Below are positions 3,478-64,000 of a stretch of 64,000 nt of DNA, one piece after another. The position numbers and the translations under genes are program-made. A model generated the notes under the pieces. That model saw nothing but the letters and a program-made list of their open reading frames with translations. It ran no database searches and was not told the DNA's origin. The stretch covers positions 3,658,001 through 3,722,000 of the forward strand of contig CAKKNE010000004.1 in NCBI GenBank assembly GCA_918797485.1. The letters run 5' to 3'. The DNA is from Pelagomonas calceolata. Taxonomy: Eukaryota; Sar; Pelagophyceae; Pelagomonadales; Pelagomonadaceae. Position 1 is the first letter of the stretch. Every line of letters begins with the position of its first letter.

Positions 3478-6400
3478 ATGCCCTGGCAGACCGTCGACGC
3501 GCGGCCGCAGAAGCGCCGCAAGGGCGACGCCGTCGAGGACGCCGAGCGGCGCGAGCTGCGGCTCCGCCGGACCTACAACGAGGCGGCGGCGGGCCACGCC
3601 GCCCTCGCGGCGAAGGCGGCCTCGGCGCCGCCCGCCGACGCCGTCGCGGCGCTCTACGAGAAGATCCTCGAGGACGTGGGCTCCGCGGCCAAGGAGAACG
3701 AGGCGCCCTGGGACGCGGCGCTGCGCCTGGCCTGCGCGCGGCACCTCTCGGAGCTCCTCGAGGCGGCCGGCGACCGGGCCGGCGCGCTCGCCGCGGCCTG
3801 CCGGGCCGCTGACGCCGGACGGAACGACGCCGGGTTGTGGCTGCGCGTCGCGCGCCTCGCACGAGTCGCGGAGGGCGTCGCCGCGGCGCGCGTCGCCGTC
3901 GGCGCGCTCCAGCGCGCGGCCGCGCTGCGCCGCGCCGAGCGGGAGGACGACGGGGCGCTCGAGCGGGCCGCGCGCGCGGTGGGCGTCAAGCGCGCGTGCT
4001 TCCGCGGGGTCGCGGCGGACGGCGCCGCCGCGCCGCCGGCGCCTCCAAGGACGGTGCGCGCAACAAAGACGTGGACGGGCCTTGGGAGCGCGCTGTTGGC
4101 GGCGCGGGCGGCGCTCGCGCGCGACGCGCGGGCCGGCCGCGCGACGCTCGACCACCCCGTCGCCGTGGAGTGGATCGCCGAGAAGAAGAAGGCCGAGGCG
4201 GCGCAGGCGAAGAAGCCGGCCGAGGCGCCCGGGGATGAGAAAGCCAACGAGGGCAAGGACGACGAGAAGCGGCCGCGGCGCGGCGCGCGGCGCCGCGGCG
4301 CCGCGCCGACGGAGGAGAAAGAGGAGGACGACGCCGTCGCGGAGCTGCCGCTCGCCGCGCGCGTCTTCGGCGCGCTCCTCGACGGCGCGCCGCCCCCCAA
4401 GCCGCCCGACGGCGTCGCCGCGGCCTGGTTCGCGCGCGCGCCGGCGGCGCCGGGCGCCGCGGCCGCGGCCGCCGCCGCGCCGCCGTCCTTCGCCGCGCCG
4501 CGCCGCGTCCGCGACCACCTCGCGGCGTTCGTCGCCGCGGCGGCGCGCGCCGAGGCCGCGTGGGCCGCGGACGACGCGCGGAAGGTCTTCGCGGAGGCCG
4601 TCGCGGCCGTCGACGGCGCCCTGGACCCGGCCGCGCTCGTGGCGCTCGCCGAGGTCGATAGTTCCGCGCTTGCGCGCGCGAGGCTCGACCCGCGGACGGC
4701 GGACCGCCCGGACCTCGCGGCGCGGCTCCACTGGCTGGCCGCCGAGGGCGCGGCGGCGCGGGGCGACGCTTTTGTTGCGCGGGCCGAGTTCCAAGCCTGC
4801 GCGCGGGCGCTCCTTAAGCACGGCGGCGTCGACGCCTGTGTGGAAATCAACCAGTGTGACGGGTGCACCGACAATTCTTCACTAAGTCGTTTCTCGGCGA
4901 TGACGCGGCCGTCCTGGCTCTGTCGAGCGGTGAGGAACCGGCATCACCACGCCATCGAGCAGGCGTCGCGTCGATGGCGTGGAGGCCGACGCGACGATTC
5001 AGCACGAACGCGCCGTAAAATTTTGATTTCCGCACAGGTCGACGCCGTCGTCCACCGCTGGCCCGCGGGCGAACCGCGCCTGAGCGGCGCGGCCGTGGCC
5101 CACCAGCTCGCGGTCCTGGCCCGACGCGAGGGCGATTCTCGGCTCGGCGACGGCCTCGCGGCGGCCGCGGCTGCGGGCGGTGCGGCGCTCTGGCGCGAGG
5201 CCCGGCGGCTGCGGGCGCGCGACGCGGCCGGGTTCGCTGGTCTGCTCGCGGGCGACGCTCTGCGCGGCGCGGGCGTGCTCGAGGCGCTCTGCGCGGCCGT
5301 CGGCGGCGCGACGGACGTCGCGGCGGACGCCGCGGCGATTGCGCGGGCCGCCGCCGCCGACCGCGCGCGGGCGGGCGAGGCCCTCGACGCCTGCGTCGCC
5401 GTGCTCGACGCGCTCGCGCGCACGCCGCCCCAGGCGGCGCGGGCGACGTTCGGCCGCGGGGCGCGGGACGCGGACGCCGCGGTCGCGGTCGCGGCGACGG
5501 CCGCTCGCCTCCGCTCGCTCCTGGACACGACGGCCGCGCGCGCGGCCGTCGCCGCGGCCGGCGGCGACGCCGTCCGCGCCGCGCTAGCGCGCACGGTGGC
5601 CGTTGCCGCGGCCGGCAGCCGCGCCGACGCGGTTCTCGACGCGCTCGTGGCGGCGGCGGCCGTCGACGCGGTGCTCGGCGGCGCCGCCGCGCGGGACGCC
5701 GTCTCGCACGCCGCGACGGCCGCCTGCGCGACCTGCGCGGCGGCGCTGGGCGCGGCGGTCCGGGCCCGGAACGACCCCGAGGTGCTGAGCGCGGCCGCGT
5801 GCGGTGAGGCGCTGCTGCAGGCCATGGGCCCGCCGGCCGCGCGGCGCCACCTCGCGGCGGCGGCGGCGCTCCTCGGGGCGCTCGAGCGCGCGCGGGACAA
5901 GCCGCGGCTCGCGAACCTGCGGTGTCGCGCCGCCGCAGCCGCCGTCCGCGCGGCCGAGGCGGTCGATCCGGCGCGGGCCCCGGCGGTCGTGCGTGACCTC
6001 CTGGAGCACCTCGCGGCGCGCAAGTGCGTCGACGCCGGCGACGCGGCCTTCCTGCGCGCCGCCTGCGGCCTCTTCGCGGATCGCGCGGCGCGCGCCGCGC
6101 CCGGCCGCCGGCCCGTGCTCGCGCGGGACGAGGAGCACGCGGCGGCCCAGTGCTTCTACGATTTGATCGGGGCCAAGGTGCTGCGTGACGCCTGCGCGGG
6201 CCACGTCGTCTCCGAGGCCGCGCGGAAGCGCCGCGCGAAGCACTTCGAGGCCCGCGACGGCTTCGCGCTCTTCGCGGCGCCCCTGGTCCTGCGCGACCGC
6301 ACCGCGGCCGACGAGCCGCCGCCGCCCCTCGTGGGCCGCCGGGACCTCCTCGAGACGCTCAACGGCGCCGCCGGCGCCGCGGCGCGGCTCGCGCGGCGCA

Positions 6401-8187
6401 CGGTCGACGACGACGACGTCGACGCGTACCTGTTCGCGCAGAAGGACGCGCCGCAGCACTGGCCCGGGGCCCTCCTGGCGGGCGTTTACGAGGAGTCGCC
6501 GCCGGAGGACGACGACGCGAGTGTCACGGTTCCGGACGACGACGCCGCCGCGGCCGCCGCGGACGACTACGTGGCGGAGATCATGGCGCGGCGGTTGATG
6601 GGGCGGGACAAGGAGGCGGCGCAGGAGGAGGCCAAGGCGCCCGCGAAGCGCGAGGCCGCGCTGCTCGACGCCGCGGCGTGGTGTGCGCGCGCCTGTGCCT
6701 GTCGGCCGCGGGACGCAAGGCGCTGGCTCGCGCTGGCGCGCTGCTACGAGGACCTGGCCGCGCCGCTGCTGGCGCTCGGTGACCTGGGCGAGCCGTTCGC
6801 CGCGGCGCCGCCGAAGCGGCCCCTCAAGGCCGTCGCGCGGCTGCCGTACGCGGCGTCGACGGACGCGGCGCTCCAGTTCGCGGCGCCCTACGCCGCGCCC
6901 GGCGAGCTGCGCGCCGAGGCCGCCGCGACCGTCGGCGCCGCGCGCCTCGAGGCGGCGAAGCGGGCCTACGCGCTCGCGCACGCGACTTCCGGAGACGCGG
7001 CGGCCGCGGCGGCCGCCGCGCTCGCGCGGGGCCGCCTGCGCTACGCGGACCTGCGGGAACTGGCGCTGCGCGGCACGTCCATGCCCACGCGCCAGGCCGC
7101 CGGCGACGCCCAGCGCTGCTTCGAGGCCGCGTCACTAATAGGCGACGCGGCGCAAAAGGCCTTTGCGCTCGTCATGCTCGGGAAGATCGCGTGGCGGTCC
7201 GACGACTACGACCTCGACGAGCGGCGCCGCGACGCCATCGTCCTCTTTCGCCGGGCGTACGACGCGCTGCCGGCGACGGGAAAACCCACGGGAAGGGACG
7301 ACCCGTACCCCTGCTACCGCCTGCACGCGGCGCGGCTCAAGGTTGCGCTGGACGCGGCGGCGGGCCGCGTCACGCCGCTGGCGCTGCAGGCGTGCCGCGA
7401 GACCGCCTTCGGCGCAAGCGACGGCTCCGTCGCGTCGATCGTCGAGGACTGCGTCCGGGCCTTCGAGGCCTGCCGGAAGCAGGACCCCTACCACGCGCGG
7501 GCTGCCCACTCCCAGGCCGTGGCCGCGCGTGCCCAGCCGACGCTCAGCCTCGCGGCGACGGCGACGGCGTCGTCGAACCGCTTCTGCGCCGAGGCGGACG
7601 CGCGGCGGCTGCAGGAGCGGACGCGCGTCGCCGTGCGACGCGGCGCGGCGGCGGCGAAGGACGTCCTCGAGAAGGCCCTCTTCAGCGGCAAGCGGCCGCA
7701 GGTCGTCGCGCTCTGGCGCGTCGAGGGCGACGCTGCGACGCCCAGGGAGTGCCTCGACGCGGACCACCGGCGCTACGACCGGACGCGGTTGAAGTACGTC
7801 GCGCTCTTCGCCGACGTGCTCGTGGACCTGGGCGACCACGGGCGGCTGCGAGATCTCGAACATCAGATCTGCCAGGCGCGCGAGCGGTCCCGGTGCACGG
7901 ATTTGATGGTCGATTGCTCGCGGAACGCGCGCCTGCGGGCCGTGGTGGGCGCGCTCGACGACGACGACGGCGGGGCCCCGCTCGCGCTGGCGGCCGCGGC
8001 GGCGCTGCGCGGCGACCGCGGCGCGCTCAAGCGCCTGCCGGCCCCGCTCGCGTTGGGCGCGGTCGCCGACGCCCTTTTCGTGGAAGCGGCTCGGAAGGCG
8101 ATGCCGGGCCTTCTGACCGCGGCGGCGTCGCCCGCCGAGGCCGTCGAGGCGGTGCGGACGCGGTGGCCGGCGCTCGTCCCGTCGTAG
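3478..8187 (+). CDS. Hir3/CABIN1-like histone chaperone subunit (TPR-type)
   Basis: The unspliced frame is 1569 codons. Removing the introner intron at 4828-5037 gives about 1499 residues, as one 210-base phase-0 intron. The protein is Ala-rich and almost wholly helical. An N-terminal tetratricopeptide-like array contains GLWLRVARLARVAEGVAAAR. A distal block has DPYPCYRLHAARLKVAL, and later SGKRPQVVALW followed by RTRLKYVALFADVL, which resemble conserved stretches of CABIN1/Hir3 as I remember them. In that family the protein scaffolds the HIRA complex that deposits H3.3 outside replication. An acidic/basic linker lies at about 250-300. The assignment is by pattern memory; another TPR scaffold is possible. 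Confidence 0.55.
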   Translation: MPWQTVDARPQKRRKGDAVEDAERRELRLRRTYNEAAAGHAALAAKAASAPPADAVAALYEKILEDVGSAAKENEAPWDAALRLACARHLSELLEAAGDRAGALAAACRAADAGRNDAGLWLRVARLARVAEGVAAARVAVGALQRAAALRRAEREDDGALERAARAVGVKRACFRGVAADGAAAPPAPPRTVRATKTWTGLGSALLAARAALARDARAGRATLDHPVAVEWIAEKKKAEAAQAKKPAEAPGDEKANEGKDDEKRPRRGARRRGAAPTEEKEEDDAVAELPLAARVFGALLDGAPPPKPPDGVAAAWFARAPAAPGAAAAAAAAPPSFAAPRRVRDHLAAFVAAAARAEAAWAADDARKVFAEAVAAVDGALDPAALVALAEVDSSALARARLDPRTADRPDLAARLHWLAAEGAAARGDAFVARAEFQACARALLKHGGVDACVEINQCDGCTDNSSLSRFSAMTRPSWLCRAVRNRHHHAIEQASRRWRGGRRDDSARTRRKILISAQVDAVVHRWPAGEPRLSGAAVAHQLAVLARREGDSRLGDGLAAAAAAGGAALWREARRLRARDAAGFAGLLAGDALRGAGVLEALCAAVGGATDVAADAAAIARAAAADRARAGEALDACVAVLDALARTPPQAARATFGRGARDADAAVAVAATAARLRSLLDTTAARAAVAAAGGDAVRAALARTVAVAAAGSRADAVLDALVAAAAVDAVLGGAAARDAVSHAATAACATCAAALGAAVRARNDPEVLSAAACGEALLQAMGPPAARRHLAAAAALLGALERARDKPRLANLRCRAAAAAVRAAEAVDPARAPAVVRDLLEHLAARKCVDAGDAAFLRAACGLFADRAARAAPGRRPVLARDEEHAAAQCFYDLIGAKVLRDACAGHVVSEAARKRRAKHFEARDGFALFAAPLVLRDRTAADEPPPPLVGRRDLLETLNGAAGAAARLARRTVDDDDVDAYLFAQKDAPQHWPGALLAGVYEESPPEDDDASVTVPDDDAAAAAADDYVAEIMARRLMGRDKEAAQEEAKAPAKREAALLDAAAWCARACACRPRDARRWLALARCYEDLAAPLLALGDLGEPFAAAPPKRPLKAVARLPYAASTDAALQFAAPYAAPGELRAEAAATVGAARLEAAKRAYALAHATSGDAAAAAAAALARGRLRYADLRELALRGTSMPTRQAAGDAQRCFEAASLIGDAAQKAFALVMLGKIAWRSDDYDLDERRRDAIVLFRRAYDALPATGKPTGRDDPYPCYRLHAARLKVALDAAAGRVTPLALQACRETAFGASDGSVASIVEDCVRAFEACRKQDPYHARAAHSQAVAARAQPTLSLAATATASSNRFCAEADARRLQERTRVAVRRGAAAAKDVLEKALFSGKRPQVVALWRVEGDAATPRECLDADHRRYDRTRLKYVALFADVLVDLGDHGRLRDLEHQICQARERSRCTDLMVDCSRNARLRAVVGALDDDDGGAPLALAAAAALRGDRGALKRLPAPLALGAVADALFVEAARKAMPGLLTAAASPAEAVEAVRTRWPALVPS
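4836..5037 (+). mobile_element. Introner element A (202 bp) acting as an intron
   Basis: The ends are CTGTGTGGAAATCAA and TTGATTTCCGCACAG, imperfect inverted repeats. They are flanked by a perfect 8-bp duplication GTCGACGC at 4828-4835 and 5038-5045. A 12-bp perfect stem at 4947-4958/4971-4982 lies inside. Removing 4828-5037 as GT...AG restores the pre-insertion codons exactly. The 5' GT comes from the host duplication and the CACAG 3' site from the element. The whole insert has no stop in the host frame. Confidence 0.88.
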
Positions 8188-8225
8188 TAGTCGTGTGAAT
8201 CATACAAGTATCTTACATGCCAGTG

Positions 8226-9077: not shown

Positions 9078-9348
9078 CGCGCCTCCGCCGCGGCCGGGGA
9101 GGAGGGGTTGCTCAATGATGCCTAACAGGTCGCAGCGCTGCGGCCAGCCCTGAGGCTCTCCACAGTCGTGAGGCTCTCCCAGGCCTGGATCCCCCCTTGA
9201 AGACTAATGCGCAGTTCTCAGCCCGAGGTTCTAGCGACTGCTCAGCGCTTGACCTTGCGCTCTCTCCTCCGCAAGGCCCACAGCACGACCGGTTCGAGCG
9301 TCAGCGGTACCCGGCTGGCCCAAGAGCATCTCGAATTATTTTTCTCGA

Positions 9349-11163: not shown

Positions 11164-13296
11164 TCAGGGGTCGCCCCCCACCGGCAGAAAGTCAAGGCCG
11201 AAGACCGTGTCGTCCTCCGCGTCCCCAAAGTCCAGCACCCCCACATCGTCGAAGGAGTCGTCCTCCTCGAGGAGCTCGATGTAGCCGTTGTCGACGGAGA
11301 CGATCGCGGCGAGCGACGCCACGGGCACGGGCCACGCGCTCAGGAAGTCGCGTCCGCCGTCAAAGGTCTTCTCGACGAGGACCGCCAGGCCCGCGGGCCG
11401 CGCGCCCGCCCGCGCGACCAAGCGGAACATGGCCTCCTGGCAGCTTCCTGAAGCTAGAAAATCGTCGACGACGAGCACAACGTCGTCCTCGCTTAGGGCG
11501 TCGCGGGGCAGGTACAGCTGCTGGCCCGGGCCGTAGTGCTTGGATCTGTAAGTCACGTCGAGCGCGTCCGCATACGCACCCCTGCCCATGGCATTCGCCA
11601 CCGCGCCCGCGCCGGCGGCCTCGCGCCGGCAGGCGACGAGCGGCACGCTCATGAGCCGCGCGAGCGGCAGGGCCAGCTGCTGGCCGCTCACGCCCGTCGT
11701 GAGGATCTTCGTGGCGGCGTCCGTGACGTCCGGCCCGAGCCGCCGCCGCAGCTCCGCGGCCGCCTCGTCCAACAAGGCCACGTCGACGACCGAACCCACG
11801 AAGGCCGAGACGTCCACGTTCCCGTTCGTGAGCACACGAGCCTCGTTGCGCAATCTTTCGCGGAACGCCTCGGCGCCGGGCGCCGCCGGCCGCGGCCCCG
11901 CGAGGGCCCGCTCACGCCGCGCCTCGAAGAACTCGAACGTCAAGTCTTCGACTGCCTTGTCCTCCCGCGGGTCCTCGCCTGTGCGGAAATCAAAATTTCA
12001 CGGTGCCTTCGGGCTGAATCGTCGCGTCGACCTCCACGCCATCGATGCGACGCCTGCTCGATGGCGTGGCGGTGTGCCAGTTCCTCACCGCTCGACGGAG
12101 CCAGCGACCACGTGCACCAGATACGCTTGATTCCCACACAGGTCCTCGCAGAGCGCCTGGAGGACGCCCTGGAACGCCTCGGTGCGCGCGGTCATGGCCG
12201 TCAGCGCCGTCGCCGACCGCAGGTCGCAGCGCGTCTCCGCGCGCGCCGCGAGCGACGCGTTTTTGGCCGCGTCGTGGAACGCGCAGCAGGCGACGAAGCG
12301 CGTGCGCCGCTCGCCCGGCGACACCGTCGCGAGGCGCTCGAGGAGCCGCGTCGTCTGCGCCTCCTCGACGTTCGGCACCCGGTACGCCGCCGCCGCCCGC
12401 GGCAGGAGCTCCCGCGCGCCGGCCTCGAGCGCCTCGACCTCGAGCACCGTGAACTCCGCCACGCACGGCAGGCCCGTCGCCTCGGAGACGTACACCGCCC
12501 GTTCCAGCGCTTGTGCCTCCTCGTCTCCATCCGAAATCTCGACGTCGTCAACATTTAATGCTTGCTCGACGCCGAACTCGCGGAGGAAGAACTTGGCGTA
12601 CCGCGCGAACGGGCCGGCCGCGACGGCCGTGCACCAGCGCCGGTCCAGGCCCGGCACCTTCGTGTCCGGCGCCGGTCGCGCGAAGTCCGCCGCCTCGAGC
12701 GTCGGCGACGACGTCCTCGACGACGTTACTAGAGGAGGTATTTCCTCGACGTCCTCCTCGGCGGCGGCCACAGGCGCGTTGTAGAACTCTGATACCGCGT
12801 CCTCATCGTCCTCCTCGTCCTCGTCCTCCTCGTCCTCCTCGTCGTCGTACACGTAGGACGGGCTCCCCTCGGCGAGCGTCGAGAAACTCTCGAGCGCGCC
12901 CTCGACCTCGAGCGCCGACGCCGACGGCCGGCCGATGCCGGCGATGGCGCGCCGCCGCGCCATGACCGCGCGCGCGCGGCCCGCGCCCATGCCGTCGGCG
13001 ACCATCGACTCCTCGTCGAACCAGCCGGCCATCGGGTCGTCGTCGCCCGCGGCCTCGTAGGCCTCGCCCCTGTTGCCGAACCAGTTCGGATCATCTAGCG
13101 CGGCCTCGACGTCGTCGCGGATGCGCCGTCGGCGCCGGCCCGTCCAGTCGTCGACGGACGAGTGGTCCGCGCTGCCCTTCTCCTTGCTACGCTGGCTGCG
13201 CTTGCGGGCCGCGAGGGCCGTGGTGGGGCCTGGCCGCCGCGGCTGGAGGAAGGCCTCGGCCGCGAGGAGCAGCGCAACGAGCGCTGCGCCCCGCAT
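11164..13296 (-). CDS. Fusion: unknown N-terminal domain + xanthine phosphoribosyltransferase
   Basis: Exon 1 is 13296-12150 and exon 2 is 11978-11164; together 653 codons plus stop, in frame across the introner. The N-terminus MRGAALVALLLAAEAFLQP looks like a signal peptide followed by an ASAFAP-like motif, so plastid targeting is plausible. Residues 40-190 are acidic and disordered. A middle region (about 215-390) is not recognised. The last 230 residues match bacterial Xpt-type enzymes: the PRPP-binding loop VVLVVDDFLASGS, then VLVEKTFDGGRDF. Family members convert xanthine plus PRPP to XMP in purine salvage. The two-part architecture is unusual. The stop at 11164 overlaps no other gene. 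Confidence 0.75.
11979..12141 (-). mobile_element. Introner element B (163 bp) acting as an intron
   Basis: Ends on the plus strand are CTGTGCGGAAATCAA and TTGATTCCCACACAG, with a perfect 8-bp duplication GTCCTCGC at 11971-11978 and 12142-12149. In the sense of the minus-strand gene the duplication reads GCGAGGAC. The intron that restores the gene is 12149-11979 and begins GC and ends AG. The host frame joins as ALCED-PRED across it; read through, the element brings a stop. Confidence 0.88.
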
Positions 13297-13623: not shown

Positions 13624-14707
13624 ATGGGCAAGAAGCAGTGCGGCGAATCATGACCACCACGCCATCGACGCGATGCCACCCAACTCACTGGCTGATTTGC
13701 GCACAGGTAAGAAGAACAAGAAAAAGAAGGGCGTCCTGAAACAGATGAAGAAGGCCAAGAAAAAAGCCAAGAAGCAGGCCAAAAAGGCCGCCGAGGCCTG
13801 CGAGGACGCCGTCGAGGACGTCGTCGACGCGGCCGAGGACGTCGCCAAGGACGTCGTCGCCGCCGCCGAGCGCACGATGGAGGAGCTCCAGGACATGGCG
13901 ACGCGCGCCTTCAAGAAGATCCTGGAGGCCGCGGCGAACGCCATGGTGGCGGCGGCGCAGGACGTCGGCACGTGGGCCCGCGACGACCTGAAAATTCCGG
14001 TGCCGGGGCAGGAGCAGTTCGACGCGGCCGCCGAGCTGGTCGGCGGCGTGCCGTTCGTCGGCGGGAGCATGGCGGGCGCGATGACGGAGAAGGTCGAGGA
14101 GGTGGCCCAGGCCTTCCTGGATGCGATCATAGCGGTGGCGACGGACCCCGGCTGCATCAAGGCGTTTCTGGACCCGATTCTCTCCATCGACCTGGACGAC
14201 GCGGTGGCGCTCTGCGAGAAGGGCCTCGACGGGCCGGCGCTCGCCGAGTTCTTCGAAGAGACGTGCGGCGCGGCCATCAAGGAGACGATGACCGGCGTCG
14301 TGGAGGGCGCCCTGGAGGGATGCGCGCTCACGGCGGCGTTCCCGTCGGCGAAGGAGGCGTATAACGCGATCGCGGGAAAGGTGCCGGGCCTCGACGAGAT
14401 CGAGCTATCCCTGCCGACGTACCTCTTGGACAACTTCGTGGAGGGCTGCAAGAAGCTCCTCTGCGAGAAGGAGTACGATGCCAAGGCGGGGGCCAAGGAC
14501 TCGGGCGACGACGACCTGATGGAGCTCTTCGGCGACTTCCTCGACCCGGACTCGTCGGACTCGGAGAGCGACGACGGCGACGACGCGACGGCCGACGACG
14601 GTGGCGAAGGGGGCGCGACGAAGGTGCTGACGGACCTCGGGGCCTCGGTGACGACGATGGCCGAAGGAATGTTCGCCACGGTCGGCGCTCCGGAGGAGCC
14701 GGAGTAA
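13624..14707 (+). CDS. Lys-rich amphipathic helical protein, unknown function
   Basis: Proposed exons are 13624-13627 (ATGG only) and 13707-14707, giving 334 residues. Spliced, the protein begins MGKKNKKKKGVLKQMKKAKKKAKK. It continues with long Ala/Glu/Asp helices (residues about 30-90), a globular or membrane-associating middle (GGVPFVGGSMAGAMTEKVEE), and an acidic Ser/Asp tail. No family is recognised. A strongly basic helix before acidic helices suggests binding to a membrane surface or nucleic acid, but that is a guess. The unspliced ATG would meet a stop after 10 codons (TGA within the element), which supports the intron. Confidence 0.65.
13636..13706 (+). mobile_element. Short introner element C (71 bp), start-codon intron
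   Basis: Diverged ends CAGTGCGGCGAATCA and CTGATTTGCGCACAG, with near-perfect 8-bp flanks GCAAGAAG (13628-13635) and GTAAGAAG (13707-13714). The core contains CCACGCCATCGACGCGATG shared with other copies. The implied intron is 13628-13706, GC...AG, directly after ATGG. Confidence 0.75.
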
Positions 14708-14744
14708 ATCATCTAATTCTATCTCCCCGAGCCCCGTGGCGGGG

Positions 14745-18769: not shown

Positions 18770-19090
18770 CAAGTGTGCACTTTTGTAGACACGCTCGTGA
18801 ACAAGCTCCGCGCCGACAAGATGTGCAAGGGCTGTTCGCCGCCGCCGCCTGTGCGGAAATCAACCAGCGGGGACGACGCTTCGATGGCGTGGGGCGCCTG
18901 AAGTTTGATTCCGCACAGGCCGCCGCACCGCTTCTTCCGCGGGAACGAGGGCCACCCGCGGCCGCGGTGCTTCAACATCCACGAGGTCAAGCCCCACCCG
19001 TCGCTCTGGGAGACGATGACGGGGCTCTGGCGGGGCAAGGGCAAGAAGTCCTTGATCAACGCCGCGATCTACCTCGAGACGCACGAGTAG
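18770..19090 (+). pseudogene. 5'-truncated sulfotransferase paralogue
   Basis: Only the C-terminal end of a sulfotransferase-like gene. After removing introner E (18841-18918) it reads DKMCKGCSPPPHRFF then GHPRPRCFNIHEVKPHPSLW, matching the end of the 17161 gene (GTCAGCERPPADFF...HPRPRCFGVQDV). It ends in a TAG at 19088 after an extended tail with GLWRGKGKKS. Upstream, the frame meets a TAG at 18767 and no PAPS-binding loop is present. Either it is a truncated duplicate or a CATAG 3' splice site at 18769 joins it to an unseen exon; the former is likelier. Confidence 0.65.
18849..18918 (+). mobile_element. Short introner element E (70 bp)
   Basis: Ends CTGTGCGGAAATCAACC and GTTTGATTCCGCACAG with a perfect 8-bp duplication GCCGCCGC at 18841-18848 and 18919-18926. 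Excision of 18841-18918 (GC...AG) restores the reading frame of the paralogue fragment. The full-length paralogue has no insert at the matching site. Confidence 0.85.
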
Positions 19091-27581: not shown

Positions 27582-28732
27582 TCAAAGCTCCTCCGAGTCC
27601 CCGGCCATCTCCGGCGGCGCGGGGCTCTGGGCCTCCGGGTGGTCCTTGAGCCACTGCGTGTACTGCTCATCCATCTTCGCATTGGCTCCGGCCTTGATGA
27701 GGGCCTCGATGATGTCCTTGTTGATGATGCCCATCTCGTCGCCCTTGATCGCCGCGACGCGGAGCGGCGTCGTGCCGTACGCGTCGAAGGCGTTCGGGTC
27801 GGCGCCGTGCGCGAGGAGCGCGGTCAGGCACGCAAGCCGGTCCGGCGACGTCGCCGCGTGGATCGGGCACAGCCCGGCGCTCGCGACGCAGTGGCCCGCG
27901 TCGGCGCCCTTCTCGAGCAGCGCCGCGGCGATGTCGCAGCGCTTCTGGCGCACCGCGACGAAGAGGGGCGACTTTTCGTCGGACTCGGCCTCCAAGTCCG
28001 CGCCGGCGTCCAGGAGCAGCCGGACCGTCGCGAGGCTCCCGGCCTGTGTGATAATCAAATTTTACGGCGCGTTCGTGCTGAATTATCGCGTCGTCCTCCA
28101 CGCCATCGACGCGACGCCTGCTCGATGGCGTGGCGATGTCGGTTCCTCACCGCTCGACGGAGCCAGCGCGGCCACGTCGTCGCCGAGAAATGACTTAGTG
28201 AAGACCCGACACACTGGTTGATTTCCACACAGCTCCCGGCCCGCACGGCCGCGTGCAGGGCCGTGAAGCCGTCCGGGGCCGGGCCGACCTGGTTCGGCGG
28301 CCGGTCGGGCGTGGGGTCGACGCCCGCGGCGTTCGGGTCCGCGCCCTGGCCGAGCAGGTACTCGACGACGGCGGCGTTGCCCCCCTGCGCGGCCACGTGC
28401 ATCGGAGTCCAGTTCGTCGTGTTTAATTTGACATCGACGGCGTCGCCGCGCGCCACCAGCTTCTCGCAGCAGTCCGCGCGCCCGCCGAAGGCCGCGGCGT
28501 GCAGCTCCGTGGCGTCGAGGTACTTGGCGCCCTCGTCCTCGCGCACGTCCTCTTCCAGCTCGCCGACCTCGTCGCCGCACGCCGCGAGGACATACGTCAG
28601 CGTGACGCCCTTGCCGCCGCCTTTCAGGCGCGTCTGGAAGGTTGTCTCCACGCTATCAATGCCGGCGCCTCTTTCCTTGATGCTCCAGGCCTGCGCTGCG
28701 GAGCACAGCGCCAGCAGAGCTGCACAGCGCAT
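27582..28732 (-). CDS. Secreted/lumenal ankyrin-repeat protein
   Basis: Exons 28732-28241 and 28043-27582 give 317 residues. MRCAALLALCSAAQAW is a signal peptide. Ankyrin repeats follow: LDATELHAAAFGGRADCCEKL, NWTPMHVAAQGGNAAVVEYLL, then GFTALHAAVRAGS-LATVRLLLDAGADL, where the hyphen marks the introner site, and further repeats including YGTTPLRVAAIKGDEMG. The repeat is only complete when the element and one target copy are removed. Protein-protein binding in the secretory system or plastid is likely; partner unknown. A Pro/Glu tail ends the protein. Confidence 0.85.
28044..28232 (-). mobile_element. Introner element F (189 bp) acting as an intron
   Basis: Plus-strand ends CTGTGTGATAATCAAAT and GGTTGATTTCCACACAG with a perfect 8-bp duplication CTCCCGGC at 28036-28043 and 28233-28240. 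In gene sense the duplication is GCCGGGAG, so the intron 28240-28044 is GC...AG, 197 bases; it restores the ankyrin repeat LHAAVRAGSLATVRLLL. Read-through meets a stop. Confidence 0.9.
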
Positions 28733-40014: not shown

Positions 40015-40949
40015 ATGAAGCTGTTCGTCCTCGTTCTCGCCGGCATTGCTCAACAGGCGACTCCACTCCAACTCCTCAACGCCGGTGGCGGCCGCGGCGC
40101 CGGCCTGCTATTGCCGCGGGCGCTGAACGAGCGGCAGCAGTCGCAGATGTACGCGTACGTCTGCGCGAACGCGCGGGGCACGCAGGAGTGGCAGAACCTC
40201 CAGGTCGACGCGGGAACGCTTGCGTGCGACGAACGTGATATGCGTGTTCCGGCGTCCTTGAATTTGCTCGGCCTGTGCCTCACTGGTCGACTTTCCTACA
40301 GGTTCAAGACCCCCTTCCCCGCCGAACGGCCGCTGCCGTTGCTCGTGCATAAGCACCCGTACACGCTCAAGTCGAACGGCGAGGAGCCGAGGACAATCCT
40401 GACCTGGGCCCGCCAACTGGCCTCGTACGCTGCACGCAAGGTGGCCTCCGTGGACGCGACGGGCCTGGCGCCGCGGGAGGAAAGAGCGCGCCTCGCGCGG
40501 GCCCTGCGGGCGACGCGCCTGGACTCGCTGGTGTCGATCCTCTACCGTGCGCGTGGCGCCCTGCGGCCGCACGTCGACCACGGGCTCGAGGGTCTAGGAC
40601 TTGCCGTGAGCCTCTGTGTAGAAATCAATGCAGTTACGGAGACGACGTCGCGTTGATGGCGTGGGGCGTGCGAAATTTGATTTCCACACAGGTCAGCCTC
40701 GGCAGCTCGTGCGAGTTCCGCTACGGCGACGAGATCGTCGAACTCAGGTCGGGCGACGCGCTGTTCGGCAACTTCGGCAGCGTCGAACACGAGGTCGTGT
40801 CGACGCGTCCGGCGGCGACGGGGCCGGCGTGGTGGAGACGCCTGCCCGCGGCGCCGGGGCTGGCCGGTGAGATCTCGCGTTTTGGCCGCGCGCGGTGCAG
40901 TTTGCAAATCCGCCAGGCGCGCGATCGACGGCGCGCGTCGTCGGGCTGA
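40015..40949 (+). CDS. AlkB-like 2-oxoglutarate/Fe(II) dioxygenase, signal-bearing
   Basis: Exons 40015-40605 and 40692-40949 give 282 residues. A signal-like N-terminus MKLFVLVLAGIAQQATPLQL. The Fe ligands fit HVDHGLEGLGLAVSLGSS (H-x-D at about 186), and the second half has SGDALFGNFGSVEHEV, with the distal His in SVEHEV. The exon join lies inside the double-stranded beta-helix between AV and SLG, so the intron is needed. AlkB-type enzymes oxidatively demethylate nucleic acids or proteins; with a targeting peptide the substrate is probably organellar or not nucleic acid. The C-terminus is short and basic. Confidence 0.75.
40614..40691 (+). mobile_element. Short introner element G (78 bp) acting as an intron
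   Basis: Ends CTGTGTAGAAATCAATG and TTTGATTTCCACACAG, flanks GTGAGCCT (40606-40613) and GTCAGCCT (40692-40699), seven of eight. The intron 40606-40691 is GT...AG with a strong GTGAGC 5' site, 86 bases, so it is not a multiple of three and must be spliced for the enzyme to be made. Confidence 0.88.
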
Positions 40950-55744: not shown

Positions 55745-55809
55745 CTGTGCGCGAATCAATCAGGGGGTCGGGTGCACGCGTCGATGGCGTGAAGGCCATG
55801 ATTCACCAG
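55745..55809 (-). mobile_element. Decayed introner remnant
   Basis: One end CTGTGCGCGAATCA (plus strand) and the other GATTCACCAG, with the core CACGCGTCGATGGCGTG in between. The 8-bp flanks do not match (ACCGTTGC against TGGCGGAG). It supplies a CACAG 3' site on the minus strand just before the 55744 coding exon. Confidence 0.5.
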
Positions 55810-55837
55810 TGGCGGAGACGCGCTGCGACAATTTGAC

Positions 55838-57136
55838 TTATGCACTGACTGGTTGCATCTTCTGGACGCGGCTGTAGTTTTGGAGGAGAGCCGCCCAGCG
55901 GCCCGCCTTGCGCTTTTCGATGAGCGCGTCGCGGTCCTTCGCCCACCGGGCGGCCGCTTCCACGGCGTCCTCGCTGGCGGGAGGCTTCGACTCGCGCCGC
56001 GTGGCCTTCGACTCGGAGATCTGCGTGCGCCAGTAGTCGACGGTCAGGCGGCCCCAGTCGAAGCTCCGCGTGTCTGCGAGCCGGGCATCACAGCGTCGCA
56101 GCACGTCTGGGGTCAGCGCGTCCCAGGCCGGCACGAAGCACGCGGGCAGGCCGTCTAGGAGCGAAAGGGTTATGGGGGAAGAGTGCACAATAGGAACGGC
56201 GCCGAACACTAATGCTTCCCAGTGGCGGTGGCAGTCAATTTGGGAACCCGGCGGCGAGATGACGTACCTTGCCTTCAGAAGTTCTCCGACGTAGTGCTCC
56301 TCGGGCGTGCAGGGCGCTTTGTCGTTCAGCGCGCACGTCGAGTTGCGCCGGGCAATATTCTTCATGCGGTTCAGGGCCTTGAAATTGCGTTCGGCTACGT
56401 CCACGGCGGACTGACGCGCGCCAGCAATGGTCCGTCCGGCGGCATGCACATGGAAGTTCGCGTAGACGTCCACGGACCGCGGCTTGCGCTGCTTGCGCAA
56501 CAGCGCCAACCCGGCGCCGAGCGCCTCAAAACCCTTCGTCAGGCCCATCGGCATGTGTCGTAATTTCGGGTGCAAGACCCAGGCGTCGTTCTCGTGGCGA
56601 TCATGGTCCATCACGAACCACGCGCGGAGCTTGGGCGCGTCCAGCAGCCGCGCGAGCTTGTCGAAGCCGCAGGGCGGGTACTGCTTTTTCCGGAGGTAGG
56701 CGTGGTCCCAGGGGCTGCCGTGCTCCCCTACGGGATACGGGAGCGTGAGCAGCGTGAAGCCCGCGATGTCGCTGGCTTTGGCGAGGATTGGAACTAGCCG
56801 CGTTACGAACGCACAAAGCCCGTCGAACGCGCCTTGTGATGTAGCGTGCCCTAGCGGGACCCAAAGCACGGGGTTCCGCACGCCAGGCCTACGCTGCCCC
56901 GCGTATGCTTCGACGTCGCTCGCGTTTCGAAGTACCCGGGTCACGAGCGGTGCCTTCGCCCCCGGCGCGCGCACCGTGCAGCCACTGCCGTCTTGGTCAC
57001 CGCAGAACGCCCCGCCGAAGTCGTCCGAGATGACCTGGTCTGCGGTTATCGGCGGCGGCGTCGACGCGTAGCGGTAGGCGTTGCTCGCCGCGACCGCTAG
57101 CCAGGCCTGCAGCAGACTTTTGCTACTCATGCTCAT
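55838..57136 (-). CDS. Exostosin/GT47-like glycosyltransferase, Golgi type
   Basis: 432 residues from the ATG at 57136, chosen because it starts a hydrophobic anchor (MSMSSKSLLQAWLAVAASNAYRY). The C-terminal half has RYVISPPGSQIDCHRHWEALVFGAVPIVHSSP, typical of the nucleotide-sugar-binding block of exostosin-like and related GT-B enzymes, and TPDVLRRCDARLADTRSFDW. WFVMDHDRHENDAWVLH sits mid-protein. The enzyme probably builds secreted or wall glycans. It lies directly upstream of the fucosyltransferase-like gene on the same strand. Confidence 0.65.
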   Translation of the reverse strand: MSMSSKSLLQAWLAVAASNAYRYASTPPPITADQVISDDFGGAFCGDQDGSGCTVRAPGAKAPLVTRVLRNASDVEAYAGQRRPGVRNPVLWVPLGHATSQGAFDGLCAFVTRLVPILAKASDIAGFTLLTLPYPVGEHGSPWDHAYLRKKQYPPCGFDKLARLLDAPKLRAWFVMDHDRHENDAWVLHPKLRHMPMGLTKGFEALGAGLALLRKQRKPRSVDVYANFHVHAAGRTIAGARQSAVDVAERNFKALNRMKNIARRNSTCALNDKAPCTPEEHYVGELLKARYVISPPGSQIDCHRHWEALVFGAVPIVHSSPITLSLLDGLPACFVPAWDALTPDVLRRCDARLADTRSFDWGRLTVDYWRTQISESKATRRESKPPASEDAVEAAARWAKDRDALIEKRKAGRWAALLQNYSRVQKMQPVSA

Positions 57137-58216: not shown

Positions 58217-58421
58217 TAGAGCTGTGCGTTTTGCGTCGCACGAGATCGCGCGGTGATGAGAGGCTGCGAGAGCCTCTGTGCTTTTTAGTGAGGAGGCGCG
58301 AAGGGGTTGGCTCGCTCGATGCCGCTCGATGGCGTCTATGAGAGAGAATCTCGCGCGCTGCGCTAACTGTATTTGCGATGCCTGTGGCTGCCGTAAATGC
58401 CTTGCCAAAGCTGGTCGTGAT

Positions 58422-58446
58422 TACTAGCGTAATGAGGCACTAGCGT
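58422..58446 (+). promoter_or_regulatory. Bipartite promoter element, copy 10
   Basis: ACTAGCG, spacer TAATG, AGGCACTAGCG. It points toward the SGNH hydrolase at 58574, about 130 bases away, inside the 357-base divergent gap 58217-58573, which has no other recognisable feature. Confidence 0.45.
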
Positions 58447-58573
58447 AATTGGCCTGTGGCGCTTTGCGACCTGTTGCACAAGTTGTGTGGGCCTCTATAA
58501 AGAGCTAGACGCCCAGCGGTCTCACGCTCGACGGCTTTCGACATTTGTTTGCAAACGTAGCGTCTGCCTTGCG

Positions 58574-59479
58574 ATGGACAGCCAAAAAGTAGCACTGGTC
58601 GCCGCTGGCGCTGCAGCCGGCGCGGCGGCGACGTATTACTATGCCACCTGTGGCACCACTGATGCCAAAGCTGCGAAGCCGCCGCCGCCACCCGCTTCCG
58701 ATGCGACCGATAATGTCATCTGTGACGAAGACGTCCAGAGAATTGTGTGCTACGGCGATTCCAATACGTGGGGCCTCGACGCGTTCAAGGGCGATGCGAT
58801 GCGCCGTTTTAAGCACCCTTGGCCGCGCGTCCTAGCGAGGAAGTTGGGCCCGGGCTACGACGTCGTCTCCGAAGGATTGAATGGCAGGACGACGATCGTC
58901 GACGACCCGTTCATGGCCGAGTATGAAGTAAACGGTCGGCGCACGCTGCCGCCGATCCTCCACAGCCACAAACCGATCGACGTGCTGGTGATCATGCTGG
59001 GGACGAACGACCTGAAGAAGCATCTGAACCTGAGCCCGCAGCTCATCGCTCGCGGTGCGGCGACGCTGGCGAGCGACGCGCTGCGCATGGACGTCTGGCG
59101 AAGCACGCCTCGGGTCCTCCTCGTCTGCCCGCTCAATATCCGACAGCCACCGCCGTCGTGCCGCTTCGCGTACAGTTTTGACGGCGGCGCGGCGAAGGCC
59201 CCGGCCTGTGCGAAACACTACCGGGCCGAAGCTGACGCGCTCGGCGTCGCGTTCCTCGACGCCAACGAGGCGACGCAGATCCCGGACCCGCGGCACGGTG
59301 GTGATGGTATTCACCTATCGGCCCAGAATTGCGCGGACTTAGGTGGTGCCGTCGCGGCGAAGGTCCAGGAGATGCTTACGGGGAGCTTCGACGAGACGGC
59401 GCACGACACGAGGCCTATCGCCGAGTACTCGTCCCTGCCCGTCGCCGACGGGAAGTCGCCGCGGATTTCGCAGAAGTAA
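58574..59479 (+). CDS. SGNH/GDSL hydrolase, membrane-anchored
   Basis: 301 residues from the ATG at 58574. A short hydrophobic anchor (VALVAAGAAAGAAATYYY) and Pro-rich linker precede an SGNH fold: block I VCYGDSNTWG with the nucleophile Ser, EGLNGRTT supplying the Gly, LGTNDLKKH with the block III Asn, and DGIHLSAQN with the catalytic Asp-x-x-His. GDSN and NGRTT are typical of arylesterase/TAP-like bacterial esterases. It probably removes acyl or acetyl groups from a small ester or glycan. Substrate unknown. Confidence 0.88.
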   Translation: MDSQKVALVAAGAAAGAAATYYYATCGTTDAKAAKPPPPPASDATDNVICDEDVQRIVCYGDSNTWGLDAFKGDAMRRFKHPWPRVLARKLGPGYDVVSEGLNGRTTIVDDPFMAEYEVNGRRTLPPILHSHKPIDVLVIMLGTNDLKKHLNLSPQLIARGAATLASDALRMDVWRSTPRVLLVCPLNIRQPPPSCRFAYSFDGGAAKAPACAKHYRAEADALGVAFLDANEATQIPDPRHGGDGIHLSAQNCADLGGAVAAKVQEMLTGSFDETAHDTRPIAEYSSLPVADGKSPRISQK

Positions 59480-59498
59480 ATGTGCACATTGTTAAAAT

Positions 59499-60845
59499 TT
59501 ACCCTCCCGAGAGCGTCGGCCGCACACTTCGAAGCTTTGTGCACGCGCCGCAGTCCGAATCACAAGTGTAGTTGTAGCCCAGGCCGACGTCCGAGACCCG
59601 GTGCGACACCTTATCGACGGACACGCGCTCCCACACCGAGTCGGGCGCCTCGGACCGCGTGAAGTTGGCGTGGAGCCAGACCTGGTTGACGTCCGACCCG
59701 CGCCACGTCGCGTCGCGCGTATAGCCTCTATCCTCAAGTAAATCGGCGAGGGCGTCTCCTTTCACCTTGTTCCACTCGACGATGAGAACCTGTGTGGAAA
59801 TCAACCAGTGCGTCGGGTGCACCGATAATTCTTCACTAAGTCATTTCTCGGTGACGACGCGGCCGTGCTGGCTCCGTCGAGCGGCGAGGAATCGGCATCG
59901 CCACGCCATCGAGCAGGCATCGCGTCGACGGCGTGGAGGACGACGCGATGATTCAGCACGAACGCGCCGTACAATTTTGATTTCGACACAGATGAGGACG
60001 TCGACGTGGACATGCCTCCAGTCGAAGGACTGGAGAATGTCGAACTCGGACCCCTCCACGTCGATGCTCGCGAGGTCGTAGCGCTCGATGCCGGCGGCGG
60101 CCGTCACGTCCTCGAAGGGCACGCAGGTCGCCCGGGTCATGCCGATCATGCCCGCCGGCGACTGCGGCGCGAAGACGCGGCCCGAGCCGGGCGCCTGGCC
60201 CCGCGCCCGTCCAAAAAGTACGGACCCGCCGCCGCGGCAGACCGCGGCCTTGACCCGGGTCGCCTTGCGGCGGTGCCGCACGCACTCGTCGAAGAGGCGC
60301 GGGTTTGCTTCCACCAGGAGCCCCGTCCAGCCGTACGTCTCCTCGAACAGTAATGTGTTCGACATCCACACACCGTTGTACGCGCCGATCTCCAGATATG
60401 TGCCACTTCGTTTGTTCCAGAAGTAGCTCCGGAGGAGCTCCTGGTCCTCGTTGAGCTGCGAGTAGCTCCGCAAGCGCATCGGGAACTTGTCGCTCCCACA
60501 CAGCGGCGCCGCGTTGCGGCTCGGCGGCACGAAGGCCGCGTGGTGATGTCGCAGGCGCTGCCGCGCGGCGCGCTGGCGCCGCAGCGGGTCCCATTCGGCG
60601 TCCTCGGCTCGTTGCGCCGCCTGGTTCCTAATAACAATGTTGTCGTGGCGCTGCTGCGCGCGCTCCTTGCTGCTCAGCGTCACGTGGAGCGGCTTGCCTT
60701 CCTTGCTCTTGAGGGTCACGTGGGGCAGCTCCTTGCTATTGTGCTCGTTGCCGCGGCCCTTCTTGTGCGCTCCTTGCTCGTTGGTGCTCTTGGATGCCCC
60801 GTCTGCATTGTAATAAAGCAGCCACAGGAGGCTGGCATGCCTCAT
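59499..60845 (-). CDS. FkbM-family methyltransferase
   Basis: Exons 60845-60000 and 59789-59499 give 378 residues. A signal anchor (MRHASLLWLLYY) and Lys/Gln-rich stalk precede an FkbM domain: GTYLEIGAYNGVWMSNT is the SAM motif, GWTGLLVEANPRLFDECV the acidic loop, and LASIDVEGSEFDILQSF the typical FkbM signature. The introner splits VDVLI-VEWNK, and joining restores the strand. FkbM enzymes O-methylate sugars, antibiotics or lipids. The tail has a CDSDCGACTKL Cys cluster. Its 3' end is 19 bases from the convergent SGNH gene. Confidence 0.85.
59790..59991 (+). mobile_element. Introner element I (202 bp), inverse orientation to its gene
   Basis: Ends CTGTGTGGAAATCAACC and TTTTGATTTCGACACAG; flanks ATGAGAAC (59782-59789) and ATGAGGAC (59992-59999), seven of eight. 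Length and sequence nearly match element A, but here the host gene is on the opposite strand. In gene sense the intron 59999-59790 begins GTCCTC and ends CACAG. Confidence 0.88.
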
Positions 60846-61243
60846 GGATGCCGCGCGGCTGCCAACGCGCGTGCAAACTGTTCGCAGGTGGTTATCGAGC
60901 AAGAAATGGTAGTTTTTGCTGATGGATCGAGCTATGGGGCAGCTATGGGCAGCACAAATGACATTGTCATTTTTTTTCGACCACTAGCTATGCCTACTAG
61001 CTGGGCTGCCCCAGCGCACGCCCTAACCCCTCACACAGCTTCATATTGGTGCCATAGAGATACAGAGCGCTGGTCTCGCCGGCGCACAGACAAAATTTGC
61101 GCGGGGTTTCGCGCCCCATCCAAACAAAAAGCGTCGAGTGTGCGCGCCAGCAAGCAAGCTTCACCGCGGCAAAGCAGGGCAGCTTCGTCGCGAGCCACCG
61201 AAGCGATCAGAGGGCAGCCCGCGCCGCAGCAAAGACAACAAAC
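60846..61243. other. Divergent intergenic region
   Basis: 398 bases between the FkbM and EF-hand/WW genes. CACTAGC and CTACTAGC words at 60980-61004 resemble half-sites of the promoter element but not the full layout. No gene or RNA found. Confidence 0.35.
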
Positions 61244-63442
61244 ATGAGGGTCTCCCAGTCGGCCCGCGCGCGCCAGTCTTTTATGAGAGAAGCCATGAGG
61301 GACTACCCCGTGCCGGCGCGCGAGGAACTTCATAAGTTGTGGGAGCGCTTCGACTACAACGGTAATGGTCTCCTGTCGCTCGCCGAGATCGACAAATTAG
61401 TAAGAGAGGAATACCCGCAGTACGACGACAAGCAGGCCCTGCTACGAGCTTATAAATTTGCGGACCAGGACGGGTCCGGCTTCATCACGAAGAACGAGTT
61501 CGCCACGTTAGTAAGGTCTCTGGCCTATTTCAAGGCCCTCGCGGAGGAGTTCCGCGAAGTGGATGCTTCTGGCGATCGCCGCATCGACTTCGACGAGTTC
61601 CTGGCCGGGGCGCCGCGCATGGGCCTGAATCTGGGCGAGGCGGAGGCGCGGGCCATCTTCGACAAAATGGACACGGATCATGGAGGACTTGTATTATTCG
61701 AGGAGTTTTGTGCTTTCATGGGCCGGCTCAAGGCCGAGCATAGGGATCGGGCCGAATTGCGGAGCGCCGTGGTGGCGCCGCAGCCCGAGTCTTCTTCGAG
61801 CGATGATGACGATGTCGACGCTTACTTAGCAAGAAGAAGGGCGGAGCTGGGTCTATCTGCACCTGACGATGATGCCGCTGAGGCCGTCTTGAAGCGCGTC
61901 GAAGCGCGGCTGTCGCATTCGCTCGACTCGATCCACGAGGGGCCCTTATCTCGAGCCGAAGCCGCTTTGCTGTTCCGGGACGCGGCGGGCGCGCTAGACA
62001 CCGCGGGAGCCCAGGATATTGAGAGATGCCTCATCGGTGCGTTACCGGAGCCGATCTACGGCCCGCCCGAAGCCATTGTGGAGCGAGCTAGAACCGTCGC
62101 CGATCTGCAGCCCGGGCTCGACGCGGCGCAGTTCGCGGCGTTACTGCGCGGCCTGGAGACGTGGGAATCGGTACGACGCGAGTTCGCCGAGGATAACGAC
62201 GACGACCACGATGTCAGTGTCGAGGAGTTTTTGTTGGGGGCTTCCAGTGTCCCGCTGGAGATGTCCGACGACGATGCCCGATTGCTCTTCGAGCGCATCG
62301 GAAGCACGGATTCTTCGAGGGCGCCTTTGTCGCGATTGTGCGCTGCTTTAGCGCGGCGGGCCGCGCGCTTGGATGCGTCCGAGACGAGACCGACCACGGC
62401 CGCCGCGGTCGGCGAGTCCGGCGTCTCCAAAAGGTTGTCGCGGTCGCCGCCGCCGCCGTCGCCCTCCTTAGATGGACGGCCGCTGGCCCCGACGGCGATC
62501 GAGGGGCGCAGCCCCCACAGCACGCGGTCGCCGGCGCCGCCGGCTGTGGTGGAAGAGGAGCACGACGATTTCTTAGATCAATTATCGTTAGAGGGCCACC
62601 TCGAGTCCCTGGGTGACGATAATAAGGAGGAGCTCCTGCCGCGGTCGTCGCCGCGGCGCCTCGCGCGCGAGGTCGTGCCTCCCCTGACGGCGGACGTCGT
62701 CGAGCCGCCCCTGCCGCCGCCGCCGCCCGTGCAACAACAGCACCGGTCGCCGCCCCGAAACCGGCCGCCCCTGTCCATGTGCTATCATGGGGTCGAGGTC
62801 TCGGTGCCCATGTGCGAGGAGGCGCGCCTCGACGTCAAGCCTGATGGTTCATTGCGGTTACGCTTGACGGACTTCTCGGGCGACATCACGCTCACGAAGC
62901 TGAGCGGCGCGGCGCTGACGCAGTCCATGGCCGTCGGCGACTCCGTCGCGGCGCACGAGGCGTGGCGGCGCAAGCAGCGCCGCGAGACGCCGCGCGTGCC
63001 TCCTACGCAACCGGAGACGCGCGAGGAGCGCTGGAGCCCCCTGCAGTCGCCGCCGCGGTCGACTTTTGCACAGCAGGAGCGCGTGCGCGCGCCGCCGTCG
63101 CGCGCCGCGGACCCGCTCAACTCGCCGTCGATCTGGAACGCGTCGCCGCCGCCGTCGACGGCGCGCGCGCCGCCCGCGCCGCCGCCCCTCGAGGAGGGGA
63201 GTTTTGGCATTTCCGGCCGGGCCATGGCCGTCGGCCGGGAGCCGGCCGCCGGCTCGCTCAAGGCGCGCACGTACAGCAACAGCCGCCCGACGACGGCGCG
63301 CCCGCGCACGGCGCGGCCGAAGACGTCCGACCTCCCACTGCCGCCGGGCTGGGAGCGGCGCTTCGACCCGCGCAAGCAACGGACGTACTTCATCGACCAC
63401 AACACGCGGACGACGTCGTGGCGCCATCCCCTTCGCGGGTAG
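61244..63442 (+). CDS. EF-hand array fused to a C-terminal WW domain
   Basis: 732 residues from the ATG at 61244. Four EF-hand-like loops at the N-terminus: [13 protein letters not shown] (about 35), [13 protein letters not shown] (about 72), [13 protein letters not shown] (about 106) and [13 protein letters not shown] (about 142); the last two are weaker. A further EF-like region lies near 320-350 ([13 protein letters not shown]). Then a Pro/Ser-rich disordered middle, a small domain [19 protein letters not shown], and a WW domain at 698-732 ([18 protein letters not shown]...TSWRHP) with both Trp residues. Calcium sensing joined to Pro-motif binding. No exact orthologue recognised. Confidence 0.75.
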
Positions 63443-63592
63443 TGCTTTCCTCCCCTTCCCTGATAAACTGCCTGGTTTAGCTCACATCGGCACCGCGACC
63501 GTCGCGTCGTCGCGACGCACCCGTTGCAAACCTGATGATCTCCGCCCGTTTCCCCGTGAGACCACTGGTACTACACAACATGGGTTACTTGC

Positions 63593-63934
63593 TCAGGCCT
63601 TCTCGACCGCGAGGGGGTAGATCGTGCCCTTGCCCTTGAAGCCGCCGAAGGCTGCTCCTCCACTGCTCTTCATCTCGCGCGTCAAATCGCAGCGCCAAAT
63701 TTTTCCCTCAATAGGGTCCATCATCGCGTTCATGCGGCCGCCGCCTTCCTTCCACGTGCGGTGGCTACCCTTCTGCTTCGTGAACGCGCGTACACGCCGC
63801 AAAATATCGATGTGCATGGCCACGAAGGCGGCGAGCGTCGCGCATAGGCATCCTCTGTCCCACGTGCGGATTCTTTTGATATCGACGTAGTCGCACCCGC
63901 CGAGCCTGCCACTGCAGACGACCTGGTTCGTGAC
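63593..63934 (-). CDS. Partial protein, last exon of a gene extending past the right edge
   Basis: The exon 63934-63593 encodes VTNQVVCSGRLGGCDYVDIKRI and onward to a stop. Residues VAMHIDILRRVRAFTKQKG and KIWRCDLTREMKSSGGAAFGGFKG look globular; a Cys- and Gly-rich start follows the splice site. The upstream part lies beyond an introner that reaches the right end. No family recognised. Gap 63443-63592 has no feature. Confidence 0.6.
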   Translation of the reverse strand, partial: VTNQVVCSGRLGGCDYVDIKRIRTWDRGCLCATLAAFVAMHIDILRRVRAFTKQKGSHRTWKEGGGRMNAMMDPIEGKIWRCDLTREMKSSGGAAFGGFKGKGTIYPLAVEKA

Positions 63935-64000
63935 CTGTGTGGAAATCAAATTTCGGGCACCCGACGCCATCGACGCGATATTTTCTCCGTAGCTGCGTCT
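63935..64000 (-). mobile_element. Introner element J, cut by the right edge
   Basis: The plus-strand left end is CTGTGTGGAAATCAAATTTC after TTCGTGAC (63927-63934). The interior matches the inverse of short element G, so about 10-12 bases remain outside the window. In gene sense it supplies CACAG just before the 63934 exon, whose first bases are GTCACGAA. Confidence 0.8.

Follow-up and report, generated by a model that had tools for sequence, protein, structure and literature searches.

The genome of Pelagomonas calceolata contains a family of short elements that very probably are non-autonomous DNA transposons which insert into exons and are removed as spliceosomal introns. The family was examined in a 64-kb window (the whole stretch of DNA analysed, C4:3658001-3722000) and across the 32,445,274-base genome of 8 contigs. 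According to the proposed mechanism, cut-and-paste insertion, presumably driven by a transposase, would duplicate 8 bp of the target; the upstream duplicate would give the 5' splice site, with GT or GC as its first two bases, and the terminal inverted repeat of the element would give the 3' splice site TTGATTTCCNCACAG. Element and upstream duplicate would then be spliced out together, leaving the coding sequence unaltered.

Judged from its sequence, the family is of a known kind, its mechanism being that published for DNA-transposon introners, and introners in P. calceolata are already in print. The introner elements of Aureococcus anophagefferens and Micromonas pusilla were reportedly described by Huff, Zilberman and Roy in 2016 as short non-autonomous DNA transposons. 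Those introners are like the present family in their inverted ends, in carrying one splice site while co-opting the other from the target duplication, and in their perfect removal (predicted here), and Aureococcus is also a pelagophyte; the end sequence, the subfamilies and the share of GC donors are this genome's own, and the comparison made here is one of described features. The first-pass annotation of the window had invoked this published model, and the genome-wide copies, 8-bp duplications, coding-strand donors and frame restoration described below all fit the Huff type. For P. calceolata, a genome of 32.4 Mb in 6 nuclear and 2 organellar contigs has been reported, with an intron-length peak near 210 bp that was equated with introner elements as in Aureococcus (PMC9481584); this peak agrees with the 203-bp element plus 8 bp (211) found here. 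The main-text passages of that paper drawn on here give no analysis of end sequence, duplication, splice sites or mobiliser, unlike the present work. A survey covering 175 introner-containing genomes describes families with duplications, inverted ends, an acceptor in the element and a donor in the duplication (PMC9860276), and the present family has the same four traits.

Copies in the window

It had been claimed that introner elements create introns across the window, and the scans confirmed that the family is spread over it. The end motif CTGTGNGGAAATCAA (at most 3 mismatches) matched 18 times in the 64 kb against 1.94 expected, a count reached in 0/100 shuffles, and exact ends occurred 8 times, about 2.4-fold the genome average implied by the total of 1,681. 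A matrix-plus-duplication scan returned six complete elements (4836-5037, 11979-12141, 18849-18918, 28044-28232, 40614-40691 and 59790-59991). The reversed window and five first-order Markov shuffles yielded none. The copies are as follows.

4828..5037, plus strand: predicted intron A; upstream 8-bp duplicate GTCGACGC at 4828-4835 (GT donor), 202-bp element 4836-5037 ending in CACAG, second duplicate at 5038-5045
11979..12149, minus strand: predicted intron B; element 11979-12141 and duplicate 12142-12149, minus-strand donor GCGAGGAC, perfect duplication GTCCTCGC
13628..13706, plus strand (judged by eye rather than with the codon model): eroded copy C; duplicate GCAAGAAG at 13628-13635 (GC donor), 71-bp element 13636-13706, second duplicate GTAAGAAG
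18849..18918, no strand assigned (codon model weak): element D; 70 bp, flanked on each side by the duplicate GCCGCCGC
28044..28240, minus strand: predicted intron F; element 28044-28232 and duplicate 28233-28240, minus-strand donor GCCGGGAG, perfect duplication CTCCCGGC, interrupting an ankyrin-repeat gene
40606..40691, plus strand: predicted intron G; duplicate GTGAGCCT at 40606-40613 and 78-bp element 40614-40691, duplication 7/8, frame continuous
55745..55847, minus strand (by eye): eroded copy of 103 bp; in the minus sense, 5' end CAGTGCATAAGTCAA and 3' end CGCGCACAG
59790..59999, minus strand: predicted intron I; element 59790-59991 and duplicate 59992-59999, minus-strand donor GTCCTCAT, duplication 7/8, element inverse to the gene, interrupting an FkbM-type methyltransferase
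63935..64000, no strand assigned: element J; the left end falls inside the window and the right end is likely TTGATTCCACACAG, past the window at 64089 in window coordinates (3 mismatches), duplication diverged

Nine copies had been called clear. A, B, D, F, G and I were indeed clean, J runs past the window end, C (13636-13706; 5' end CAGTG, 3' end TTTGCGCACAG) is eroded but better than its earlier description, and E could not be matched to any copy. The supposed remnant at 55745-55809 is a copy, more complete than described, that reaches 55847. Its duplicates are only partly alike (outer 8 bases CAACCAGT) and a possible GC donor sits one base outside the expected place, and from its sequence it can be read as a minus-strand intron. 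The segment 27099-27149, earlier rated a probable copy, has a GC...CACAG shape and, by eye, a 7/8 flanking duplication, but it lacks the family end motif and was not counted; it may be an unrelated or very old intron. As to orientation, which was read by eye, element I does lie inverse to its gene, and the single orientation ascribed to A, B, E, F, G and J stood for A, B, F and G; genome-wide, both orientations were found.

The 8-bp duplications of the six complete copies were perfect in A, B, D and F and matched at 7/8 in G and I. In intron A the reading frame is continuous at the empty site, but the frame would also be kept upon retention, with ORF 3433-8187 open through the element; given that the 202-bp element is in frame with its duplicate, A alone is no proof of an intron. 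Intron B was placed on the minus strand by the codon model, and its frame is continuous. Removal of an element had been said to restore an ankyrin repeat, an FkbM strand and an AlkB fold. The former two were recovered by Pfam searches: the Ank_2 match (160-222) crosses the F junction at residue 173, and the Methyltransf_21 match (198-351) crosses the I junction at residue 328. The AlkB fold was not, as the gene around intron G gave no Pfam match at E<=0.001 and its last 201 residues gave no PDB sequence match at E<=0.01.

Ends, duplications and lengths across the genome

When the end repeats were searched for in the whole genome, as the first-pass annotation had proposed, 1,681 exact ends were found, compared with 0 for the reversed pattern. 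The ends are inverted repeats, as claimed: in 190 elements of the genome, 185-205 bp long, the 15-bp sequence is exact at both ends. Flanks were then tabulated in two ways. When elements in fetched DNA were paired by their ends alone, with the duplication ignored, 75/81 had 8-bp duplicates that differed at no more than 2 positions, and 48 of these were perfect. In a wider search of about 290 kb (overlaps counted; window aside, mostly DNA chosen for holding an element), this was the case for 91/97 elements, 57 of them perfect, compared with 61/4,566 for shifted 8-mers; here the duplicate match helped to choose the pairs, and pairs that were weak in their ends as well as in their duplicate were discarded. 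The claim of mostly 8-bp duplications, several of them perfect, thus held in the window and beyond it.

Element length ranged from about 50 to 206 bp, with a best-defined form of 203 bp. The exact-ended copies of 185-205 bp were picked by design, so that long copies are over-sampled and uninformative on decay or on the mix of lengths; in DNA fetched via one exact end only, 2/17 elements were 203-206 bp long. Among 45 alignable copies of 195-207 bp, identity to the consensus had a median of 95.5% and a minimum of 63.5%, which suggests, with the caution that many of these copies were chosen for their exact ends, that the family spread recently. The internal 12-base motif CCACGCCATCGA (at most 1 mismatch, either strand) was present in 67 of the 75 elements with at most 2 duplicate mismatches, some short ones included. 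This motif forms a hairpin with its complement in long elements (e.g. window 4836-5037) and is common to introner subfamilies that otherwise differ. At one locus (L084, C1:661390-661990), three introners of different subfamilies lie inside 600 bp. Among viral contigs, whose records close to this genome may be absent, no element with both ends exact was found at gaps of 150-180 or 35-65 bases.

Donor, acceptor and reading frame

A GT or GC stood at the donor position on at least one strand in 90 of the 91 duplicated copies, compared with 33% of local-flank 8-mers (p = 3e-42). Consistent with this, 1,089/1,681 exact ends genome-wide (64.8%) adjoined RC, the complement of the donor, against about 18% of flank positions. 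The coding strand was set by codon use alone, using a model trained on long ORFs of the window. The 97 elements of the wider search were reduced to 91 by dropping 6 with more than 2 duplicate mismatches, to 88 by setting aside 3 that were short of flank, and to 53 by setting aside 35 without a confident coding signal on both sides. In these 53 copies, the upstream duplicate started with GT or GC on the coding strand in 51 (GT in 32, GC in 19) and the downstream, exonic duplicate in all 53, whereas the antisense side did so in 16 (30%, against an 18% background; p = 0.02). That 53/53 copies have the donor in the sense direction and 16/53 in antisense indicates that spliceability, and not target preference alone, shapes the copy set; moreover, as 0/53 confidently coding copies lacked a coding-strand donor, insertions without one were presumably purged. 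GC accounted for 19/53 of the sense-strand donors, a share that is high for spliceosomal introns in general.

When the element and one duplicate were removed, the reading frame was continuous in 51/53 copies. The two exceptions carry 1-nt indels in the upstream duplicate, with GT kept one base away; that the same two copies miss both donor and frame is what an intronic upstream duplicate, under no constraint, would lead one to expect. A continuous frame is in itself evidence that the elements inserted into exons, but not that they are spliced. Were the elements retained, 48/51 copies would cause a frameshift or an added stop, and 3/51 (window A included) would leave the frame undisturbed. Among 17 spliced ORFs hand-picked from 49, a Pfam domain crossed the junction in 7 and did not in 10; the domains were ankyrin (window F), FkbM (window I), sulfate transporter, GlcNAc 2-epimerase, alpha/beta hydrolase, dynein light intermediate chain and APH-family phosphotransferase.

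The terminal AG was present in all 53 listed copies, with a search motif that favoured AG. In the 51 frame-continuous copies, the CCAGTG end lay at the sense 5' side in 27 and at the opposite side in 16, with 8 ambiguous (27 vs 16, p = 0.13). With both orientations present, either end of the main form could, judged from the sequence, serve as acceptor. Splicing and non-splicing ends were equally diverged, at a mean of 0.68 mismatches each, in 31 copies (the 81 rows without the exact-ended 185-205-bp picks). Of these, 0/31 had a changed acceptor A at the sense 3' end, and 5/31 had a change at the corresponding base of the sense 5' end; other positions differ too, in both directions. Intron phases (22/16/13) did not depart from an even distribution (p = 0.29). 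For the branch point, our guess at a candidate is TTGAT.

Two other accounts of these copies were weighed. They could be ordinary MITEs lying in genes and intergenic DNA, the donor dinucleotide reflecting a target preference of the transposase (GYNNNNRC) rather than splicing. The target does look mildly palindromic, as seen in the antisense excess of GT/GC given above and in an A at duplicate position 7 in 21/53 copies (p = 8e-5). A symmetric preference, however, predicts equal sense and antisense frequencies, contrary to the 51/53 (upstream) and 53/53 (downstream) against 16/53 observed, and most copies would break their gene if retained; we regard this account as very improbable. For fungal introner-like elements, it has been proposed that copies spread as RNA through reverse splicing. 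Such a route would agree with copies that lie in genes and look removable as introns, but it does not lead one to expect 8-bp duplications, inverted terminal repeats or both orientations (27 vs 16), and appears more improbable still. Insertion as a DNA transposon with removal by splicing is the reading that we retain.

Mobiliser and relation to hAT-type MITEs

An autonomous transposase with matching ends, from which the first-pass annotation expected to learn the mobiliser, was not found by profile searches or in the sequence beside two truncated MITE ends. The profiles were searched exon by exon, with controls that were prokaryotic where positive. PF10551 (MULE) gave no match in this genome while three control genomes were positive; PF13359 and PF12762 gave no match; and PF21787 (P-type) and PF18758 (KDZ) gave no match here and none in the control genomes either. 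The sole match to PF05699 was a single-copy hAT ORF of 721 aa. It lies in an apparently complete hAT transposon at C4, about 4499549-4503200 (3,651 bp), with perfect 12-bp ends CAGGGCAGCAGA and the duplication TTGCTCGC; as these ends differ from those of the introners, the element was rejected as their mobiliser. Truncated MITE left ends were followed for 3.8 kb (L082+L088) and about 1 kb (L092), and no transposase was recognised there by eye.

CAGGG or CAGTG ends and 8-bp duplications are typical of hAT transposons, whose terminal repeat starts CAGNG-like and whose duplication consensus is nTnnnnAn. The 8-bp target duplication is present in the introners and, perfect in all four cases, in four related full-length MITEs. 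A CAGNG-like start is absent from the main introner ends (CTGTG) and occurs only in the related MITEs and at one end of asymmetric copies. As to the duplication consensus, A is enriched at position 7, the signal at position 2 (T) is confounded with the donor, and the four MITEs do not show the consensus. In summary, hAT-superfamily MITEs are like the introners in their 8-bp duplications and, in this genome, include a low-copy relative with CAGTG/CAGGG ends; they are unlike them in that the introner ends CTGTG/CACAG resemble acceptor sites.

Ends of the form CAGTGNRNAAATCAA numbered 160 genome-wide, against 0 for the control, and some of these belong to asymmetric copies, such as those that pair CAGTGCATAAATCAA with TTGATTTGCGCACAG at the opposite end (L084, L087). 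Of 16 CAGTG ends in fetched DNA, 11 could be given a proposed partner and duplication; the other end was AG in 11/11 and the donor stood 8 bp outside the CAGTG side in 10/11; in this partner search AG and TG were the only endings permitted and the CACAG motif was favoured, and some of the 11 partners are poor. With CAGTG at one end and AG at the other, such copies look fit for use in a single direction. The donor was present 8 bp beyond 12/16 CAGTG ends and 122/200 CTGTG ends, a difference that is not significant (p = 0.30).

A MITE with CAGTG at both ends lies at C3:4409231-4409617 (387 bp; ends CAGTGTAGAAATCAA, perfect duplication GCCTGGGC) and matches at least 11 places in the genome, itself included. 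Three further full-length copies have ends CAGGGTACAAATCAA or CAGGGTRGAAATCAA and the perfect duplications GCGGCGCC, TACATGTC and CAGGCGAT; a match to the right end only lies at C1:5176799. These MITE copies end in CTG, so that a terminal AG is not usable, and two of the four duplications start with GT or GC on neither strand, which is what ordinary insertions would show. At seven MITE ends, 11-13 of 15 bases agree with the introner end, compared with 11 for the best of 762 other CAGTG/CAGGG 15-mers, a background that leaves out 15-mers within 2 mismatches of CAGTG...AAATCAA (introner-type ends). Because the first MITE pair came from a motif search, its agreement is in part selected for; the other copies were found by homology to that pair. 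Over 22 bases, agreement with one introner end reaches 17-19 positions for four MITE left ends, and three right ends match either end at only 13-16.

These comparisons bear on whether the mobiliser belongs to another superfamily (e.g. P-type or MULE), the likeness to hAT-type MITE ends being convergence. Several observations speak for such a mobiliser: at its second base the introner CTGTG departs from CAGTG/CAGGG, with which the MITEs begin; the only hAT element found carries different ends; nTnnnnAn is not seen in the four MITE duplications; and the MITE right ends match less well over 22 bases. The agreement at the seven MITE ends and along the left ends tells against it, as does the lack of a PF10551 match where control genomes were positive. 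We consider a non-hAT mobiliser with convergent ends a possible but somewhat doubtful explanation, and a hAT-type mobiliser probable, though by no means certain. No link between introners and the hAT superfamily was met in a literature search limited to open papers, from which absence from print is not established; in the main text of the introner survey, neither 'pelago' nor 'hAT' occurs, and its mobiliser results stand in the supplement (PMC9860276).

The base-2 change from CAGTG to CTGTG turns CACTG at the 3' end into a CACAG acceptor. We tentatively propose that the introner may have arisen in this manner from an ordinary hAT MITE; the asymmetric copies, in which CAGTG lies on the donor side and CACAG on that of the acceptor, would represent intermediates that work in one direction, and the form that expanded would be the symmetric CTGTG one, which could be spliced either way round. 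The direction of change, from MITE to introner, is likewise something we infer.

Introners are a documented source of sudden intron gain. From the coding-strand asymmetry described here, selection for spliceability can be told apart from a preference at insertion by DNA sequence alone. The likeness of the introner ends to those of hAT-type MITEs, which was not met in the papers searched, is a testable lead on introner origin: that they resemble the ends of low-copy MITEs hints at how a transposon may become an intron maker. Given that introners, one-sided forms and ordinary MITEs with similar ends occur together in one 32-Mb genome, that of an ocean alga with a wide distribution, sequence comparison and a splicing reporter could test how a parasite turns into an intron.
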